Below are positions 1 through 4,788 of a DNA stretch of 32,084 bases, piece by piece; within the stretch, counting starts at the first letter, position 1; every line of letters begins with the position of its first letter. The stretch is from Oscillospiraceae bacterium (GTDB taxonomy: Bacteria > Bacillota > Clostridia > Oscillospirales > Oscillospiraceae), in NCBI GenBank assembly GCA_902775105.1, contig CACYLC010000028.1, forward strand, positions 1 through 32,084. Reading direction: 5' to 3'. A model generated the notes under the pieces. It was not told the DNA's origin. It was given only the letters and a program-made list of their open reading frames with translations, and did not search any database. Made by a program: the position numbers and the translations under genes.

Positions 1-44
1 TTTTTGACAGGTGGTCGTTTTGAGAGAATAGATGGTAAAAAAGA

Positions 45-119
45 GCGGGCGATTCATGAATCGCCCCTACGCACATCCGACGAGATTTGTCCGTAGGGGT
101 CGTTCACGAACGGCCCGCC
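45..119. repeat. Paired-palindrome intergenic repeat, copy R1
   Basis: The copy has two hairpin units facing each other. The left unit (45-70) contains a perfect 20-base palindrome, GGGCGATTCA followed by TGAATCGCCC, and ends CCTAC. The right unit (93-119) starts GTAGGGG and contains GTTCACGAAC. The outer GCGGGC/GCCCGC and inner CCCCTAC/GTAGGGG arms also pair, so the whole copy can fold as one long cruciform. It lies about 44 bases beyond the stop codon of the membrane protein gene at 164-784. There is no ORF and no T-run typical of a terminator. Confidence 0.75.
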
Positions 120-163
120 GTCAATGAGAGATTTTCAGTTCCGCACGCTATGCGGCTTTCTGA

Positions 164-784
164 TTATTTCCGTCTTGCAAAGTACCGATAGCCCAACACG
201 CAAATCGGCAGGAAGTAAATGCACCACACCTCCAGCAGGATCGTTCCAACCGCATTGCTCGTCCCCGCCGTAAACACGGGAAACATGGGTACGAAAAAGC
301 AGCTGACGAAGAACACACCATGAACCATCAGCATTCTTTTCAGCCACTTTCCTTCCCCGTTCTCTGCCTTCAAAACAGAGCCGATCAGAAAAGTGGACAG
401 TGCCATGAACCCATAGCCCAGCAGGTCGTAGTTGAAGAACAGACTCCCCAGATGTCCGTAATCAATGATGGACAGAGTTTCTTCACTCAGTCCCGGATTC
501 AGGTGGATGGTGGTACACTGCGCATAATAGACTAAAAGCACTAGCACCGCATAGACCGCCCCAAAGCCGACCCCGGCAAGGCCGCAGGCTTTTCTGTCCT
601 CCTCCGCATTGAGCGAATAGAGCGCCGACATAAAGGGCAGAAAGCCGATAGCAATAAACATGCTGGAAAGGCAGCTTGCAAACAGGGCATCTGAGAACAG
701 TCCGAAAATCATAGAGACGGCAAAGGCGAGGACTGCAAGACCGGTGACGGCGGAGCCGATCCTGCCGACAGTGGTGTTGGTCAT
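164..784 (-). CDS. Multi-pass membrane protein of unknown function
   Basis: A 206-residue protein that I do not recognise. It has about six hydrophobic segments, roughly residues 7-30, 35-55, 66-88, 115-140, 150-172 and 178-200, and a short basic C-terminal end (YRYFARRK), as in an integral inner-membrane protein. No catalytic motif is visible. Its size and layout resemble small membrane families such as DUF998 or DUF4386, but this is only a resemblance. I chose the ATG at 784 because an AAGGAG site lies nine bases upstream. The in-frame ATG at 793 directly abuts that site and the one at 832 lies before it. The gene stands alone between palindromic repeats R1 and R2, and no clear promoter was found. 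Confidence 0.7.
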   Translation of the reverse strand: MTNTTVGRIGSAVTGLAVLAFAVSMIFGLFSDALFASCLSSMFIAIGFLPFMSALYSLNAEEDRKACGLAGVGFGAVYAVLVLLVYYAQCTTIHLNPGLSEETLSIIDYGHLGSLFFNYDLLGYGFMALSTFLIGSVLKAENGEGKWLKRMLMVHGVFFVSCFFVPMFPVFTAGTSNAVGTILLEVWCIYFLPICVLGYRYFARRK

Positions 785-819
785 GTCATTCATCTCCTTT
801 TGCGAAATTGCAGTTGGTC

Positions 820-892
820 GGCGGGCGACCACGGGTCGCCCCTACCCCATAATTCCGAATCCCGGGTAGGGGCGATCCTTGATCGCCCGCCG
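820..892. repeat. Paired-palindrome intergenic repeat, copy R2
   Basis: The left unit is GGGCGACC-ACG-GGTCGCCC followed by CTACCC. The right unit is GGGTAGG followed by GGCGATC-CTT-GATCGCCC. Both hairpins have perfect 8-base arms around a 3-base loop, and the outer GGCGGGC/GCCCGCC arms pair as well. It begins about 13 bases beyond the stop codon of the PFL gene (stop at 905) and fills most of the space to the next gene. No T-run follows on either strand, so it is not an ordinary Rho-independent terminator. Confidence 0.8.
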
Positions 893-904
893 ATGATATT
901 TGTT

Positions 905-2263
905 TTAATTCCTCAGACTATGCAGCGGTGCCGGGATCCGTCCACCCCGGGCGATAAAGTCCTCTGCCGAACCCGTGTGAACCGGCATCACCGGCGCAGA
1001 GCCCAGCAGACCGCCCATCTCCACCGTGTCGCCCACGGACTTGCCCGGGGCGGGGATGATGCGGACGGCGGTGGTCTTGTTGTTCACCATGCCGATGGCG
1101 GCCTCATCCGCAATAATGGCGGAAATCGTGGCCGCCGTGGTATCGCCGGGGACGGCGATCATATCCAGTCCCACCGAGCAGACGCAGGTCATGGCCTCCA
1201 GCTTGTCCAGCGTCAACGCACCGGCACGGGCGGCAGCAATCATCCCCTCGTCCTCGGAGACGGGGATAAAAGCGCCGGAGAGTCCGCCCACATGGCTGGA
1301 CGCCATGACGCCGCCCTTCTTCACTGCGTCATTGAGCAGTGCCAATGCAGCCGTCGTCCCGTGGGTGCCGCAGACCTCCAGACCCATCTCCTCCAAAATC
1401 CGGGCGACCGAGTCTCCGATGGCGGGAGTGGGGGCAAGGGACAGATCGACAATGCCGAAGGGGGTATCCAGCCGGGTGCTGGCCTCCCGTGCTACAAGCT
1501 GACCCATACGGGTGATGCGGAAGGCGGTCTTTTTCACCGTCTCGGCAACAACGTCAAAGGGCTGACCCTTGACGGACTGCAAGGCGTGATAGACCACGCC
1601 GGGGCCGGAGACGCCCACGTTGATGACGCTCTCCGCCTCGCCGACCCCGTGGAACGCACCGGCCATAAAAGGATTGTCCTCCACAGCGTTGCAGAAGATG
1701 ACCAGCTTGGCGCAGCCGAAGCCGTCCGTGTCCGCTGTGCGCAGGGCGGTCTTTTTGACTACCTCGCCCATCGTGCGGACAGCGTCCATATTGATACCCG
1801 CCCGGGTGGAACCTACATTGACGGAGGAGCAGACGAAGTCCGTGGTTGCCAGCGCCTCGGGGATGGCCCGCATCAGCTTTTTGTCCGCCTCGGTGAGTCC
1901 CTTCTGCACCAGCGCGGAATAGCCGCCGATAAAGTTTACGCCACAGGTCTTGGCGGCCTGATCCAGTGCTGCGGCAAAGGGGACATAGTCCTCCGTCTCG
2001 CAGCCCGCCGCCACCAGGGCGATGGGCGTGACGGAAATGCGCTTATTCACAATGGGAATGCCAAACTCCGCCTCGATCTGCTCTCCGGTAGGTACCAGCC
2101 GCTCCGCCTTGCGACAGATCTTGTCGTAGATCTTCCGGCAGCAGACCTCGGGGTTGGGGTCGGCGCAGGACAGGAGGGAGATGCCCATGGTAATGGTACG
2201 GATATCCAGATGCTGCTGGTCGATCATCCGCAGGGTCTGTTGAATTTCACTTCCAGTTAACAT
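905..2263 (-). CDS. PFL family protein (UPF0210/DUF711)
   Basis: A 452-residue cytosolic protein of the UPF0210 (DUF711, 'PFL') family, which is distantly related to glycyl-radical enzymes and has no settled reaction. The N-terminal stretch after the chosen start (residues 10-30, with [13 protein letters not shown]) is the family signature, and the length is the usual one. The start at 2263 is supported by a GAGGTAAAG ribosome site in front of it. A longer frame reaching 2374 would run through the ACT gene and was rejected. It lies ten bases downstream of the ACT-domain gene at 2274-2543. This pairing is widely conserved, and the ACT protein is thought to act as a ligand sensor for the PFL protein; that role is inferred. 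Confidence 0.93.
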
Positions 2264-2273
2264 AATCTTTACC

Positions 2274-2543
2274 TCAAATGCGGTGCATGGCGTTAAAGAT
2301 ATCTTCTCGCTGGACGTGAATGGAAAGGCCGATTTTCTCTCCCTCTTCCCGCAGGTACTTGACCAGCTCGGCAAAGGGCAGTTCGGCGCCTGCGGTATCC
2401 ACCAGCATAATCATGGTAAAGTATTCCTGTAAAACGGTCTGGCTGATGTCCAGCACATTAACTTTGTTGTTGGCCAGAAGGGAGCAGACATCGGCAATGA
2501 TGCCCACTCTGTCCTGTCCGACGACGGTGACGATGGCACGCAT
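2274..2543 (-). CDS. ACT domain-containing protein (UPF0237)
   Basis: An 89-residue protein consisting almost entirely of one ACT domain (residues 3-75). It begins with the strand-helix pattern typical of GcvR-like ACT proteins ([20 protein letters not shown]), where the DRVG turn contributes to amino-acid binding in relatives. It is probably a small cytosolic regulatory subunit for the PFL protein encoded directly downstream. An AGAGGT site lies nine bases before the ATG. The upstream spacer holds repeat copies R3 and R4. I could not find a convincing promoter immediately before the gene. Confidence 0.93.
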
Positions 2544-2583
2544 AGTATTTGACCTCTTTTCTATATCGGGAACAATTTACATC

Positions 2584-2657
2584 CGTAGGAGCAATTCACG
2601 AATTGCCCGTTGGACAGATTACCGTAATTGACGGGCCGTTCATGAACGGCCCCTACG
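2584..2657. repeat. Paired-palindrome intergenic repeat, copy R3 (reversed polarity)
   Basis: The left unit starts GTAGGAG and contains CAATTC-AC-GAATTG, then CCCGT. The right unit contains the perfect 20-base palindrome GGGCCGTTCA/TGAACGGCCC followed by CTACG. Compared with R1, R2 and R4 the two units are swapped, so CGTAGG/CCTACG is now the outer arm and CCCG/CGGG the inner arm. The left unit is degenerate (GGAGC instead of GGGGC). It lies between the ACT-domain gene and yfbR. Confidence 0.7.
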
Positions 2658-2698
2658 CCCATTGATCGAATCTCTGAACGCAGGTCATCCGCTGATAT

Positions 2699-2779
2699 GC
2701 GGGCGACCAAGGGTCGCCCCTACCCGTTTCCTGCAAATTTTTCAGCAATGGGGTAGGGGCGAGCCGTGCTCGCCCGCCG
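2699..2779. repeat. Paired-palindrome intergenic repeat, copy R4
   Basis: The left unit is GGGCGACC-AAG-GGTCGCCC followed by CTACCC. The right unit is GGGTAGG followed by GGCGAGC-CGT-GCTCGCCC. Each hairpin again has perfect 8-base arms and a 3-base loop. The two units are separated by an A+T-rich 23-base middle. The copy ends about 12 bases beyond the yfbR stop codon, nearly the same distance as R2 from its gene. Confidence 0.8.
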
Positions 2780-2791
2780 ACAGCCGGAAAA

Positions 2792-3376
2792 TTACCCCTG
2801 CAATTCATCCAGCGTCAGTTCGAAGCTGGGCAGGTAGTGTACAATAAAATGTTGTAACGCCGGCAGAGGATTTTTCGTCAGGGCAGCGTAGGTCTGCTCT
2901 TTGGCCAGGCGGAACTCGTTGTTGCCCGCCTTCAGCTCCTCCACGCATTTCAGGTAGGCGGAGAGCTTGTCCGCCGCCTTGACCAGCGCCTCTACCTCCG
3001 GGTCTGTAGGCTGGAGCAGATCCTCGTACTCCCCCCGCAGCTCCTCCGGCAGCATGGAGAGCAGACGGTTCGCCGCCATGTCCTCTACCTCCTGATAGGA
3101 CGCCCGGAGGGTCTGGTTGTAGTATTTGATGGGGGTGGGCATATCGCCGGTAATGATCTCAGTGGCGTCGTGATAGAGGGCAGCCACCGCCACCATGCCG
3201 GGGTCGATCATGCCGCCGTAGTAGCGATTCTGGATCACCGCCAGAGCATGCGCCAGCACCGCCACCATGTGTGAGTGCTCCTGAATATTCTCTTTCGATG
3301 TATTTCGCATCAGCGCCCAGCGGTCAATGTTCCGCATCCGGGCGATGAGGGCGAAAAAGGCGTGGTCGTTTGCCAT
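2792..3376 (-). CDS. yfbR: 5'-deoxynucleotidase, YfbR-like HD-domain phosphohydrolase
   Basis: A 194-residue HD-superfamily enzyme that removes the 5'-phosphate from deoxyribonucleoside monophosphates and helps balance dNTP pools. It aligns along its whole length with E. coli YfbR as I remember it. The metal and catalytic residues are visible: R19, H34 in the QEHS motif, H69-D70 in the LYHDATE motif, and D136 in KAADKLSAYLKC. The GDMPTPIKYYN stretch and the AGNNEF motif are family hallmarks. The ATG at 3376 has an AAAGGAG site at normal spacing. It is transcribed away from mtaB, from a promoter that overlaps the mtaB control region. Confidence 0.93.
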   Translation of the reverse strand: MANDHAFFALIARMRNIDRWALMRNTSKENIQEHSHMVAVLAHALAVIQNRYYGGMIDPGMVAVAALYHDATEIITGDMPTPIKYYNQTLRASYQEVEDMAANRLLSMLPEELRGEYEDLLQPTDPEVEALVKAADKLSAYLKCVEELKAGNNEFRLAKEQTYAALTKNPLPALQHFIVHYLPSFELTLDELQG

Positions 3377-3400
3377 AGGCAGCTCCTTTGATTTCCGGGG

Positions 3401-3429
3401 TAGACTGATGTCTTTTTTTTCGGTATAAT
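3401..3429 (+). promoter_or_regulatory. Sigma-A promoter for mtaB
   Basis: A TAGACT -35 box at 3401-3406 is separated by 17 bases from a perfect TATAAT -10 box at 3424-3429. Predicted transcription starts near 3436, 60 bases before the mtaB ATG. The -10 box is inside the left arm (3422-3430) of a 9-base inverted repeat, GGTATAATG...CATTATACC. Confidence 0.7.
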
Positions 3430-3447
3430 GTGTGACATCAAGTAATC

Positions 3448-3476
3448 ATTATACCTTGCGCTCTGTGGGAAAGCAA
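3448..3476 (-). promoter_or_regulatory. Sigma-A promoter for yfbR
   Basis: Reading on the minus strand, TTGCTT (3476-3471) and a perfect TATAAT (3453-3448) are 17 bases apart. Predicted start is near 3441, so the transcript runs leftward through the mtaB promoter. The -10 box is the right arm of the same inverted repeat that holds the mtaB -10 box. Confidence 0.7.
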
Positions 3477-3495
3477 GGGAGAGAGTGACGAATTT

Positions 3496-4788
3496 ATGCG
3501 TTTTGCCATTTATACTCTGGGCTGCAAAGTGAATCAGTACGAAAGTCAGGCCATGCAGTCCATTCTGGAGGGCGAGGGCCATACCGCCGTTCCCTTTGAG
3601 AAGGCAGCTGACCTCTTTATCATCAACACCTGCTCCGTCACCGCCGTCAGCGACAAGAAGTCCCGTCAGGTCATCCGCCGGGTGCGCCGTCTGAATCCCG
3701 ATGCCGTGATTGGCGTCTGCGGCTGCTATGCTCAGGCGAAGCCGGAACAAGTGGCGGCGCTGGAGGTGGATGTAGTCTCCGGCACCGGCAACAAGCAGGC
3801 ATTTTTGCAGGAGGTTCAGCAGGAGGTTCGCCGCCGCCAGCCCTGGGTCAGCGTGGACGATGCCCTGCACCGCACCGATTTTGAGGTTCTTCCTGCCGGC
3901 GGGCTGGAAGGGCGTACCCGTGCCATGCTGAAGGTGCAAGACGGCTGCCGCAACTTCTGCACCTACTGCATCATTCCCTACGTCCGCGGCGCCCTCCGCT
4001 CCGAGCCGCTGGAGGCTGCCGTTTTACAGGCAAAGCAGCTGGAAAAAGAGGACTATCGAGAGATCGTTGTCACCGGCATTGAAATTTCCTCCTGGGGCGT
4101 GGAGTGGAAAAACGGGCTGTCCCTCATCCACCTCTTAGAGGCGCTGTGTACCGCCGTCCCCGATCTGCGTATCCGGCTGGGCAGTCTGGAGCCGAGGACG
4201 GTGACGGAGGACTTCTGTCAGAGAGCCTCCAAGCTCCCCAACCTCTGCCCCCACTTCCATCTGTCTCTCCAGTCCGGCTGTGACACCACTCTAAAGCGGA
4301 TGCACCGCCGCTACAGCACCGCCCGTTTTTTGGAGTCCTGCGCCCTGCTGCGGCAGTACTTTGACCGTCCCGCCATCACTACGGACCTGATCGTAGGTTT
4401 CCCCGGCGAGACGGAGGAGGAATTTCAGACCACCCTCTCCTTTCTGGAGCAGGCGAGCTTCTCCGCCATGCACATCTTCCCCTACTCCAAGCGCCCCGGC
4501 ACTCCTGCAGCCTCGGCCCCCGATCAGGTGCCGAACACCGAGAAGGAATCCCGCGCCCACCGGGCCGCAGAGGTCGCCGGTCGGATGGAACAGGACTATC
4601 TCTCCTCTTTTGTGGGTGAGACCCTCTCCGTCCTGCTGGAAGAGGAGAAGGACGGCTATTGGCGAGGTCACGCTCCCAACTATGTGGAGGTCTGCACAGC
4701 TGCGGAGGGAAATTGGCACAACGTCCTTGTCCCCATCACCGTCACAGAGGTGCGGGGGAATCGGCTTTTCGGAACAGTGGAACAATGA
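3496..4788 (+). CDS. mtaB: tRNA t6A37 methylthiotransferase MtaB
   Basis: A 430-residue radical-SAM methylthiotransferase that converts t6A at position 37 of ANN-decoding tRNAs to ms2t6A. The N-terminal domain has the three cysteines that hold one iron-sulfur cluster: C10 (TLGCKVNQYES), C46 (NTCSV) and C77 (CGCYAQ). The radical-SAM motif C151-x3-C155-x2-C158 follows (DGCRNFCTYCIIPYVRG). The C-terminal part (about residues 370-430) is a TRAM-like RNA-binding domain. The KVNQYES motif distinguishes MtaB from MiaB and RimO. It is monocistronic, with its own promoter at 3401-3429 and a hairpin terminator just after the stop. The ribosome site (AGGGAG) is weaker and further away than usual. Confidence 0.95.
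   Translation: MRFAIYTLGCKVNQYESQAMQSILEGEGHTAVPFEKAADLFIINTCSVTAVSDKKSRQVIRRVRRLNPDAVIGVCGCYAQAKPEQVAALEVDVVSGTGNKQAFLQEVQQEVRRRQPWVSVDDALHRTDFEVLPAGGLEGRTRAMLKVQDGCRNFCTYCIIPYVRGALRSEPLEAAVLQAKQLEKEDYREIVVTGIEISSWGVEWKNGLSLIHLLEALCTAVPDLRIRLGSLEPRTVTEDFCQRASKLPNLCPHFHLSLQSGCDTTLKRMHRRYSTARFLESCALLRQYFDRPAITTDLIVGFPGETEEEFQTTLSFLEQASFSAMHIFPYSKRPGTPAASAPDQVPNTEKESRAHRAAEVAGRMEQDYLSSFVGETLSVLLEEEKDGYWRGHAPNYVEVCTAAEGNWHNVLVPITVTEVRGNRLFGTVEQ

Follow-up and report, generated by a model that had tools for sequence, protein, structure and literature searches.

The window analysed here is a stretch of 32,084 nucleotides from an Oscillospiraceae bacterium (GCA_902775105.1, contig CACYLC010000028.1, here C28), part of a genome assembly of 1,811,887 bases in 103 contigs that is 90% complete. 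Its first 2.8 kb contain four elements (R1 to R4), each made of two short palindromes of the type known as GTAG-tagged repetitive extragenic palindromes (REPs), and the same genome encodes a REP-associated tyrosine transposase (RAYT) on another contig (C17) with two such palindromes inside its open reading frame (ORF). Read on the GTAG strand, which gives each unit its strand sign, a REP consists of GTAG, an 8-bp stem, a loop of 3-4 nt and a final GC or GT; the 8-base 5' arm is mostly GGGC followed by four variable bases, and the units form two length classes of 25 and 26 nt. Pairs have their GTAG ends either inside (tail-to-tail, TT) or outside (head-to-head, HH):

45-118, R1 REP pair, TT, spacer 22 nt, 45 nt past the stop codon of ORF 164-832(-)
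45-70, - strand, R1a REP, 26-nt class, stem GGGC-GATT, GTAG end at 70, 8/8 positions paired
93-118, + strand, R1b REP, 26-nt class, stem GGGT-CGTT, GTAG end at 93, 7/8 paired (one non-Watson-Crick pair)
821-890, R2 REP pair, TT, spacer 20 nt, 14 nt past the stop codon of ORF 905-2374(-)
821-845, - strand, R2a REP, 25-nt class, stem GGGC-GACC, identical to both copies inside the RAYT gene
866-890, + strand, R2b REP, 25-nt class, stem GGGC-GATC
2585-2656, R3 REP pair, HH, spacer 20 nt
2585-2610, + strand, R3a REP, 26-nt class, stem GAGC-AATT, one mismatch, 7/8 paired
2631-2656, - strand, R3b REP, 26-nt class, stem GGGC-CGTT
2699-2777, R4 REP pair, TT, spacer 29 nt, 14 nt past the stop codon of ORF 2792-3376(-), which is HD-domain-like by eye
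2699-2723, - strand, R4a REP, 25-nt class, stem GGGC-GACC
2753-2777, + strand, R4b REP, 25-nt class, stem GGGC-GAGC

An earlier note on this DNA had described eight hairpin units in four elements, and all eight were located at 45-2777, with no further copy in the window by pattern match. The elements measure 70-79 bases rather than about 75-80, and the outer GCGGGC and inner CCCCTAC arms said to be shared by all are those of R1, R2 and R4 but not of R3, whose GTAG ends lie outside. Nor is every hairpin intact, as had been claimed: units 93-118 and 2585-2610 pair at 7/8 positions and four copies elsewhere in the genome at only 6/8. In the two places checked, REPs lie between or at the ends of ORFs (the window) and inside an ORF (the C17 gene).

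The genome contains 54 matches to the pattern GTAGGRGYN{9,14}GCCCGY on the GTAG strand, 46 of them outside the window, versus 1 match for the control, the same pattern read backwards; the earlier note had set about ten copies as the least expected of such a family. Copy number, pairing and covariation were tallied by pattern and script. GTAG is present in 54/54 units by construction of the pattern, which fixes stem pairing only partly; pairing is seen at 6-8 of 8 stem positions. For the four inner stem pairs, the share of Watson-Crick cells is 96% in the 25-nt class (n=24) and 85% in the 26-nt class (n=30), compared with means of 75% and 52% and maxima of 87.5% and 66% when 3' arms were re-dealt in 2000 shuffles. 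Covariation of the stems, first noted in the window, is upheld by the 46 units outside it (classes pooled, 88% Watson-Crick versus a maximum of 59% in 2000 shuffles), with a small margin over the best shuffle if only distinct arm pairs are counted (0.906 versus 0.875 for 8 types; 0.792 versus 0.75 for 12 types).

Neighbouring units less than 200 bp apart form 20 pairs in this genome: 12 TT, 7 HH (one of which is the pair in the RAYT gene) and 1 head-to-tail. Close opposite pairs outside the RAYT gene belong to the same length class in 17/18 cases and have the same 4-nt arm in 3/18 (mean on mixing within classes, 3.1); in the congener G090, 2/19 neighbouring pairs are alike (rows hand-picked among the matches listed). 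Members of a pair are thus rarely alike in arm, and the window pairs are mosaics of unlike subtypes. A sub-family with the arm GAGG has a G-A mismatch at the fourth variable position, and its units are paired three times with CGGG/CGGA types (C44, C48, C69).

The gap between the HD-like gene and an ACT-like gene (both by eye) is 251 bp in the window and holds R3 and R4, four REPs in all. The same neighbours flank the gap in nine congeners. In eight of them it is 25-125 bp and lacks such REPs (two share the gap sequence), and in the closest congener, G172 (HD-like protein 96% identical), it is 150 bp and has two copies of a different GTAG hairpin, GTAGGGGTGCGGCTTGCCACACCCC. The differing contents indicate that the gap was filled separately. 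Empty sites at orthologous loci, which the earlier note proposed to look for, would correspond to the gap without such REPs in eight congeners, where no single exact insertion event was resolved. In G172 (L204) the two hairpin copies are in tandem, and one is followed by TAC, making a CTAC end like that of a double-foot REP; this is the one counterpart here of the double-foot REPs reported with TnpAREP subclass 2.4 (PMC6006769).

Y1 transposase domains are encoded by two genes of the genome (on C17 and C30). The C17 gene (C17:18817-19302, 162 aa) supplies the Y1 partner that the earlier note had suggested, matching NCBIfam NF047646 REP_Tyr_transpos (2.4e-19, 69.7 bits) and Pfam Y1_Tnp (25.5 bits, above the cut-off of 23). 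Its motifs NHIH, WQ and YIENNP are the set tabulated for TnpAREP subclass 2.4 (NH[IFV]H, WQ, YIxNNP; Table 1 of PMC6006769), to which it is assigned on these motifs. Two REPs lie within the gene, on either side of the region encoding the HUH motif:

C17:18937-18961, GTAG strand forward, internal REP 1, before HUH, in frame, peptide VGATRGRP
C17:19103-19127, GTAG strand reversed, internal REP 2, after HUH, in frame, peptide GGRPRVAPT

The two are identical, in opposite orientation, and have the stem GGGC-GACC; GACC is also the commonest variable arm of the genome (10/52 other units). In the flanks of the gene, out to 700 bp, a script scan detected no GTAG hairpin. When a relative, L123, was modelled with AlphaFold (48-row alignment; mean predicted local distance difference test score, pLDDT, 86), the best match in the Protein Data Bank was 4er8, a TnpAREP bound to a REP hairpin. 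In the model, site 1 falls in a predicted loop that links strand 1 to helix 1 (pLDDT below 50 for residues 43-49), and site 2 in a predicted loop (94-106) that leads from the third strand to the next helix. No RAYT with an internal 26-nt REP was found in the 90% complete assembly of the genome; elsewhere this class occurs inside RAYTs as GATTCACGAATC in L098, L114 and L176.

Taken together, R1 to R4 can with good confidence be regarded as pairs of GTAG-tagged REPs, similar to bacterial interspersed mosaic elements (BIMEs) or to the REP doublets called REPINs, that are probably spread by the C17 Y1 transposase with subclass 2.4 motifs. The earlier description of the elements as REP/BIME-like or similar to miniature inverted-repeat transposable elements (MITEs) is borne out in its first part by the GTAG foot, the close opposite pairs and the RAYT in the genome; the asymmetric foot speaks against the second.

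RAYT relatives were found in 45/150 genomes of the family. From 150 collected loci (30 + 40 + 80), 145 were non-redundant, 139 of these full-length, and 138 matched the HUH pattern (L107 did not and was excluded); the set of 138 omits the other places located in family genomes, which are mostly short or fragmentary, and the genus loci. The 80 came from 576 confirmed relatives and include records titled Spirochaetes, Chitinispirillales, Synergistaceae, Chloroflexi, Capnocytophaga, Omnitrophota and Deltaproteobacteria; the peptide patterns used to collect them lie outside the internal REP inserts. The sample is skewed towards genes resembling the query, having been ranked by similarity to the C17 protein, which itself bears inserts. 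The strand of each locus was set by profile before internal REPs were counted.

The internal pair is widespread: REPs are found at both sites in 98 of the 138 genes, only after HUH in 16, only before HUH in 6 and at neither in 18. The site before HUH has a single '+' copy in 101/104 genes and the site after HUH a single '-' copy in 109/114, and the copies are separated by a median of 145 bp (range 127-253). Another REP lies within 300 bp of 23/98 two-copy genes versus 16/18 genes with no copy (Fisher P=2e-7), in counts where flanking REPs may be too few for the loci that stop at contig ends. Eight genes (L101, L118, L137, L171, L202, L109, L122, L135) have one REP inside and its partner just outside, with the relative orientation kept. 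Among genus loci beyond the 138, a matched internal pair is present in L235-L241 and in L244/L250 (one gene), two hairpins in L249 and one in L243, and the script saw no such hairpin within L242, L245-L248, L251 and L252. Several of these last loci are fragments; two of them, L247 in G178 and L248 in G150, are second RAYTs of full length.

Some individual loci differ in arrangement or origin. In L151 both internal REPs, mutually identical, are flipped relative to nearly all other genes. L181 (an Omnitrophota record) and L143 (a Chitinispirillales record) are RAYTs with two opposite internal REPs, both counted before the HUH match in L143; provided that the records are clean, descent or transfer has carried the arrangement across phyla.

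The two copies within a gene are alike, and copies in different genes are not. Their mean identity in the 98 two-copy genes is 0.938, versus 0.538 with shuffled partners (maximum of 2000 shuffles, 0.592); they are identical in 42/98 genes and have the same 5' arm in 72/98, while the first site alone has 75 distinct sequences. When each 60%-identity cluster is represented by a single gene (62 genes), identity is 0.932 within genes and 0.530 between genes (0.641 between genes whose REPs have the same length), and a copy's partner in its own gene is its best match, alone or tied, in 44/62 genes and alone in 32/62. Genes that are 40-50% identical in protein agree with each other at these sites at only 0.52. 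Copies within a gene differ at 43 stem positions, and at 27 of these both copies remain Watson-Crick. The copies are read in opposite orientation and thus encode different peptides; furthermore, the site after HUH is read in three frames (77, 24 and 15 of 116), and the site before HUH mainly in one (99/106). The reverse orientation is open in more frames, so coding tolerance does not explain why GTAG reads forward at site 1. These features point to upkeep at the DNA level, whether by gene conversion, repeated replacement by an active family or selection for matched pairs, which the data do not distinguish.

REPs and RAYTs are also associated across the genus. Among 32 genomes, including the present one, the median number of REP matches is 23 in the 13 with a RAYT match (G161, G172, G176 and G177 having only fragments or broken genes) versus 3 in the 19 without (Mann-Whitney P=0.003; P=0.005 without the present genome). 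A looser REP pattern applied to the 150 family genomes, for which the control often gave equal or higher counts, was excluded from this comparison. In genomes for which all matches were available, the arm of the internal REP recurs in 31/34 other units of G150, 32/41 of G154 and 14/22 of G159.

By analogy with other RAYTs, which bind GTAG plus hairpin strand-specifically in single-stranded DNA and cut at nearby short sites (PMC8266576), the C17 enzyme may bind GTAG with the folded hairpin on single-stranded DNA, cut and rejoin it. It would thereby copy or move REP pairs into intergenic gaps. Stem changes would arise and persist as pairs, giving rise to many stem subtypes; such paired changes would survive because the folded hairpin is what the enzyme recognises. 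The earlier suggestion of a copying mechanism acting on the folded form would fit this scheme. The internal pair may represent the enzyme's own cognate ends or reference copies, which other RAYTs have outside the gene, and a cognate pair inside the gene would mean that enzyme and substrate are inherited together. As for the 26-nt class, its RAYT may have been lost or may lie in the missing tenth of the assembly, or the C17 enzyme may handle both classes. It is accordingly proposed, as a tentative reading, that the RAYT gene carries its own substrate: a matched inverted REP pair within the ORF, around the HUH half, would replace flanking REPs, evolve in concert, and set or track the type of REP that spreads. 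Under concerted evolution, stem changes, and rarely orientation changes, would hit both copies together. If the proposal is true, one ORF of about 490 bp would hold both enzyme and recognition site as a single heritable unit.

Several observations weigh against the link between the C17 enzyme and the spread of these REPs. The score of 69.7 bits is below the curated REP_Tyr_transpos cut-off of 80 bits (scores of relatives are 77.6 and 79.5 for two that lack internal REPs, and 70.5 and 54.2 for two that have them). REP matches number 20-65 in five congeners where no RAYT was detected (G046, G164, G166, G155, G134). In the present genome 42/52 units outside the C17 gene, among them the whole 26-nt class (30 units), differ from the internal stem; the internal arm of G087 is found in just 1/15 other units (25-nt class only), and that of G091 in none of the other units in the listed part of its 58 matches. 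No insertion event is resolved at base level among the nine congeners compared at the HD-ACT gap, and enzyme and REPs are linked by association.

The inferred functional upkeep of the internal pair has a serious rival in neutral insertion into tolerant loops with target-determined orientation. The internal REPs would then be neutral strays of an enzyme that acts mostly near its own gene; REPs would often land in that gene, in which only the two surface loops tolerate them in frame. This explanation, the nearest to that of Quentin et al. 2018 (PMC6006769), is somewhat doubtful but by no means negligible. In the L123 model the two sites lie in loops, 16 of the 18 genes with neither copy have REPs within 300 bp, and seven genus loci (L242, L245-L248, L251, L252; several are fragments) have no such hairpin. 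The internal state is also scattered on a tree of the 138 RAYTs (131 columns), with at least 28 changes between the state of having both copies and the rest versus a shuffled mean of 34.7, yet only 4/500 shuffles are as low; with 14/135 inner branches starred, the tree is too poorly resolved to distinguish gain from loss of the pair. Neutral strays do not readily account for an orientation that hardly varies at either site and is opposite between them, though the CTAC orientation is open in more frames, for the match between the two copies of a gene, or for the rarity of flanking REPs around pair-bearing genes (23/98 versus 16/18), but a target-site preference could still fix the orientation. 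The internal REPs could instead act mainly at the RNA level, as mRNA hairpins, bound by the RAYT or not, that limit transposase output, movement being secondary. Hairpin-forming sequences at both places in 98/138 genes and the potential of matched inverted copies to pair with each other are in line with such a brake, and down-regulation of RAYTs by REP hairpins has been suggested (PMC3733652); it is nevertheless unlikely, as neither the stem match to genome REPs (G150, G154, G159) nor the GTAG foot is needed for it.

It is likewise improbable that the RAYT is incidental and that the intergenic REPs are retained for a role at gene ends, as terminators, mRNA stabilisers or protein-binding sites. 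R1, R2 and R4 lie 14-45 nt past stop codons, as do REPs elsewhere (PMC3733652), and REP-rich genomes without a detected RAYT exist, but the HD-ACT gap lacks such REPs in eight congeners, and they are thus not needed there; moreover, the REP type tracks the internal type of the RAYT in three congeners. The evidence leaves room for later use of intergenic REPs by the host. Derivation from a MITE of a DDE transposon, integron attC-like sites or CRISPR-like repeats is suggested by little besides units that are short, palindromic and dispersed, and is hardly credible given the asymmetric GTAG foot, the presence of a RAYT that carries the same hairpins in its gene, and a layout unlike that of attC or CRISPR arrays by eye; a search of window positions 1-3500 against Rfam gave four hits, all below gathering scores and judged to be chance.

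The kind of repeat found here is already known. The GTAG-tagged REP super-family (Di Nocera et al. 2013, PMC3733652) comprises families split into sub-families by complementary stem changes, so co-varying stems alone do not make a new class. Like these REPs, the present units have an unpaired GTAG foot, a stem (6-13 bp in the super-family), a short loop and stem sub-families, and similarly form HH or TT dimers, mostly 20-100 bp apart, placed shortly after gene ends. A point of difference is that the words Firmicutes and Clostridi- are absent from the main text of that paper; the present units may still coincide with one of its 24 consensus families. The earlier statement that the repeats match no family its author could name fails as to kind; as to sequence, no published family with the same one was seen. 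The 54 copies are below the usual number of more than 100 per genome (PMC2817692). REPINs, inverted REP doublets considered the likely replicating unit (Bertels and Rainey 2011, PMC3116915), share with R1 to R4 the inverted arrangement and compensatory changes; unlike REPINs, the close intergenic doublets mostly combine two unlike stems (3/18 alike in this genome), and the copies of the intragenic pair, mostly alike, have 127-253 bp of coding sequence between them.

The C17 RAYT and its relatives resemble TnpAREP subclass 2.4, or Bertels group 4 (PMC6006769), in motifs, GTAG REPs and in-frame insertions. That paper reported in 2018 that REPs occur within subclass 2.4 genes, as a rule between HUH and Y and perhaps with little consequence for activity. 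As described there, they differ from the present ones: here there are two set sites (one before HUH), opposite orientation and matched stems, and two-site genes mostly lack REPs within 300 bp outside the gene. Searches of the open-licence literature of PubMed Central did not turn up a matched, inverted two-site internal pair that is mostly free of flanking REPs. GTAG REPs, their stem sub-families and dimers (PMC3733652) and REPs within subclass 2.4 genes (PMC6006769) are thus known, and what is new relative to these sources is a REP family of known kind together with a partner gene that has an unusual internal REP pair. The 98 two-copy genes offer a natural series of matched enzyme-substrate sets for the study of RAYT-REP matching and shifts in REP specificity, and bear on coding sequence as a carrier of DNA-level signal, at the second site in three reading frames.

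Rickettsia palindromic elements are read in frame within proteins, in various host genes. The internal REPs are like them in being in-frame palindromes, and unlike them in lying at fixed positions within the transposase that probably acts on them.

The second Y1 gene of the genome, the IS200-like gene on C30 (L001; 392-667), was rejected as a partner: its nearest pattern match is at 3891, and it scores as IS200/IS605 (NCBIfam transpos_IS200). Within the ORF (L001:296-700(-), 134 aa), residues 12-103 match Y1_Tnp and residues 78-129 the end of an ISL3-type transposase profile; judging from these matches, the ORF perhaps joins pieces of two unlike transposases. In the congener G155, where no RAYT was detected, the 22 REPs are chiefly of stem types GCAC and GGCC, with three mixed neighbouring pairs 164-180 bp apart. 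The remainder of the window (4831-31875) contains, by eye, V-type ATPase genes, a GroES/GroEL pair and, at the right end, rpoA with ribosomal protein genes.

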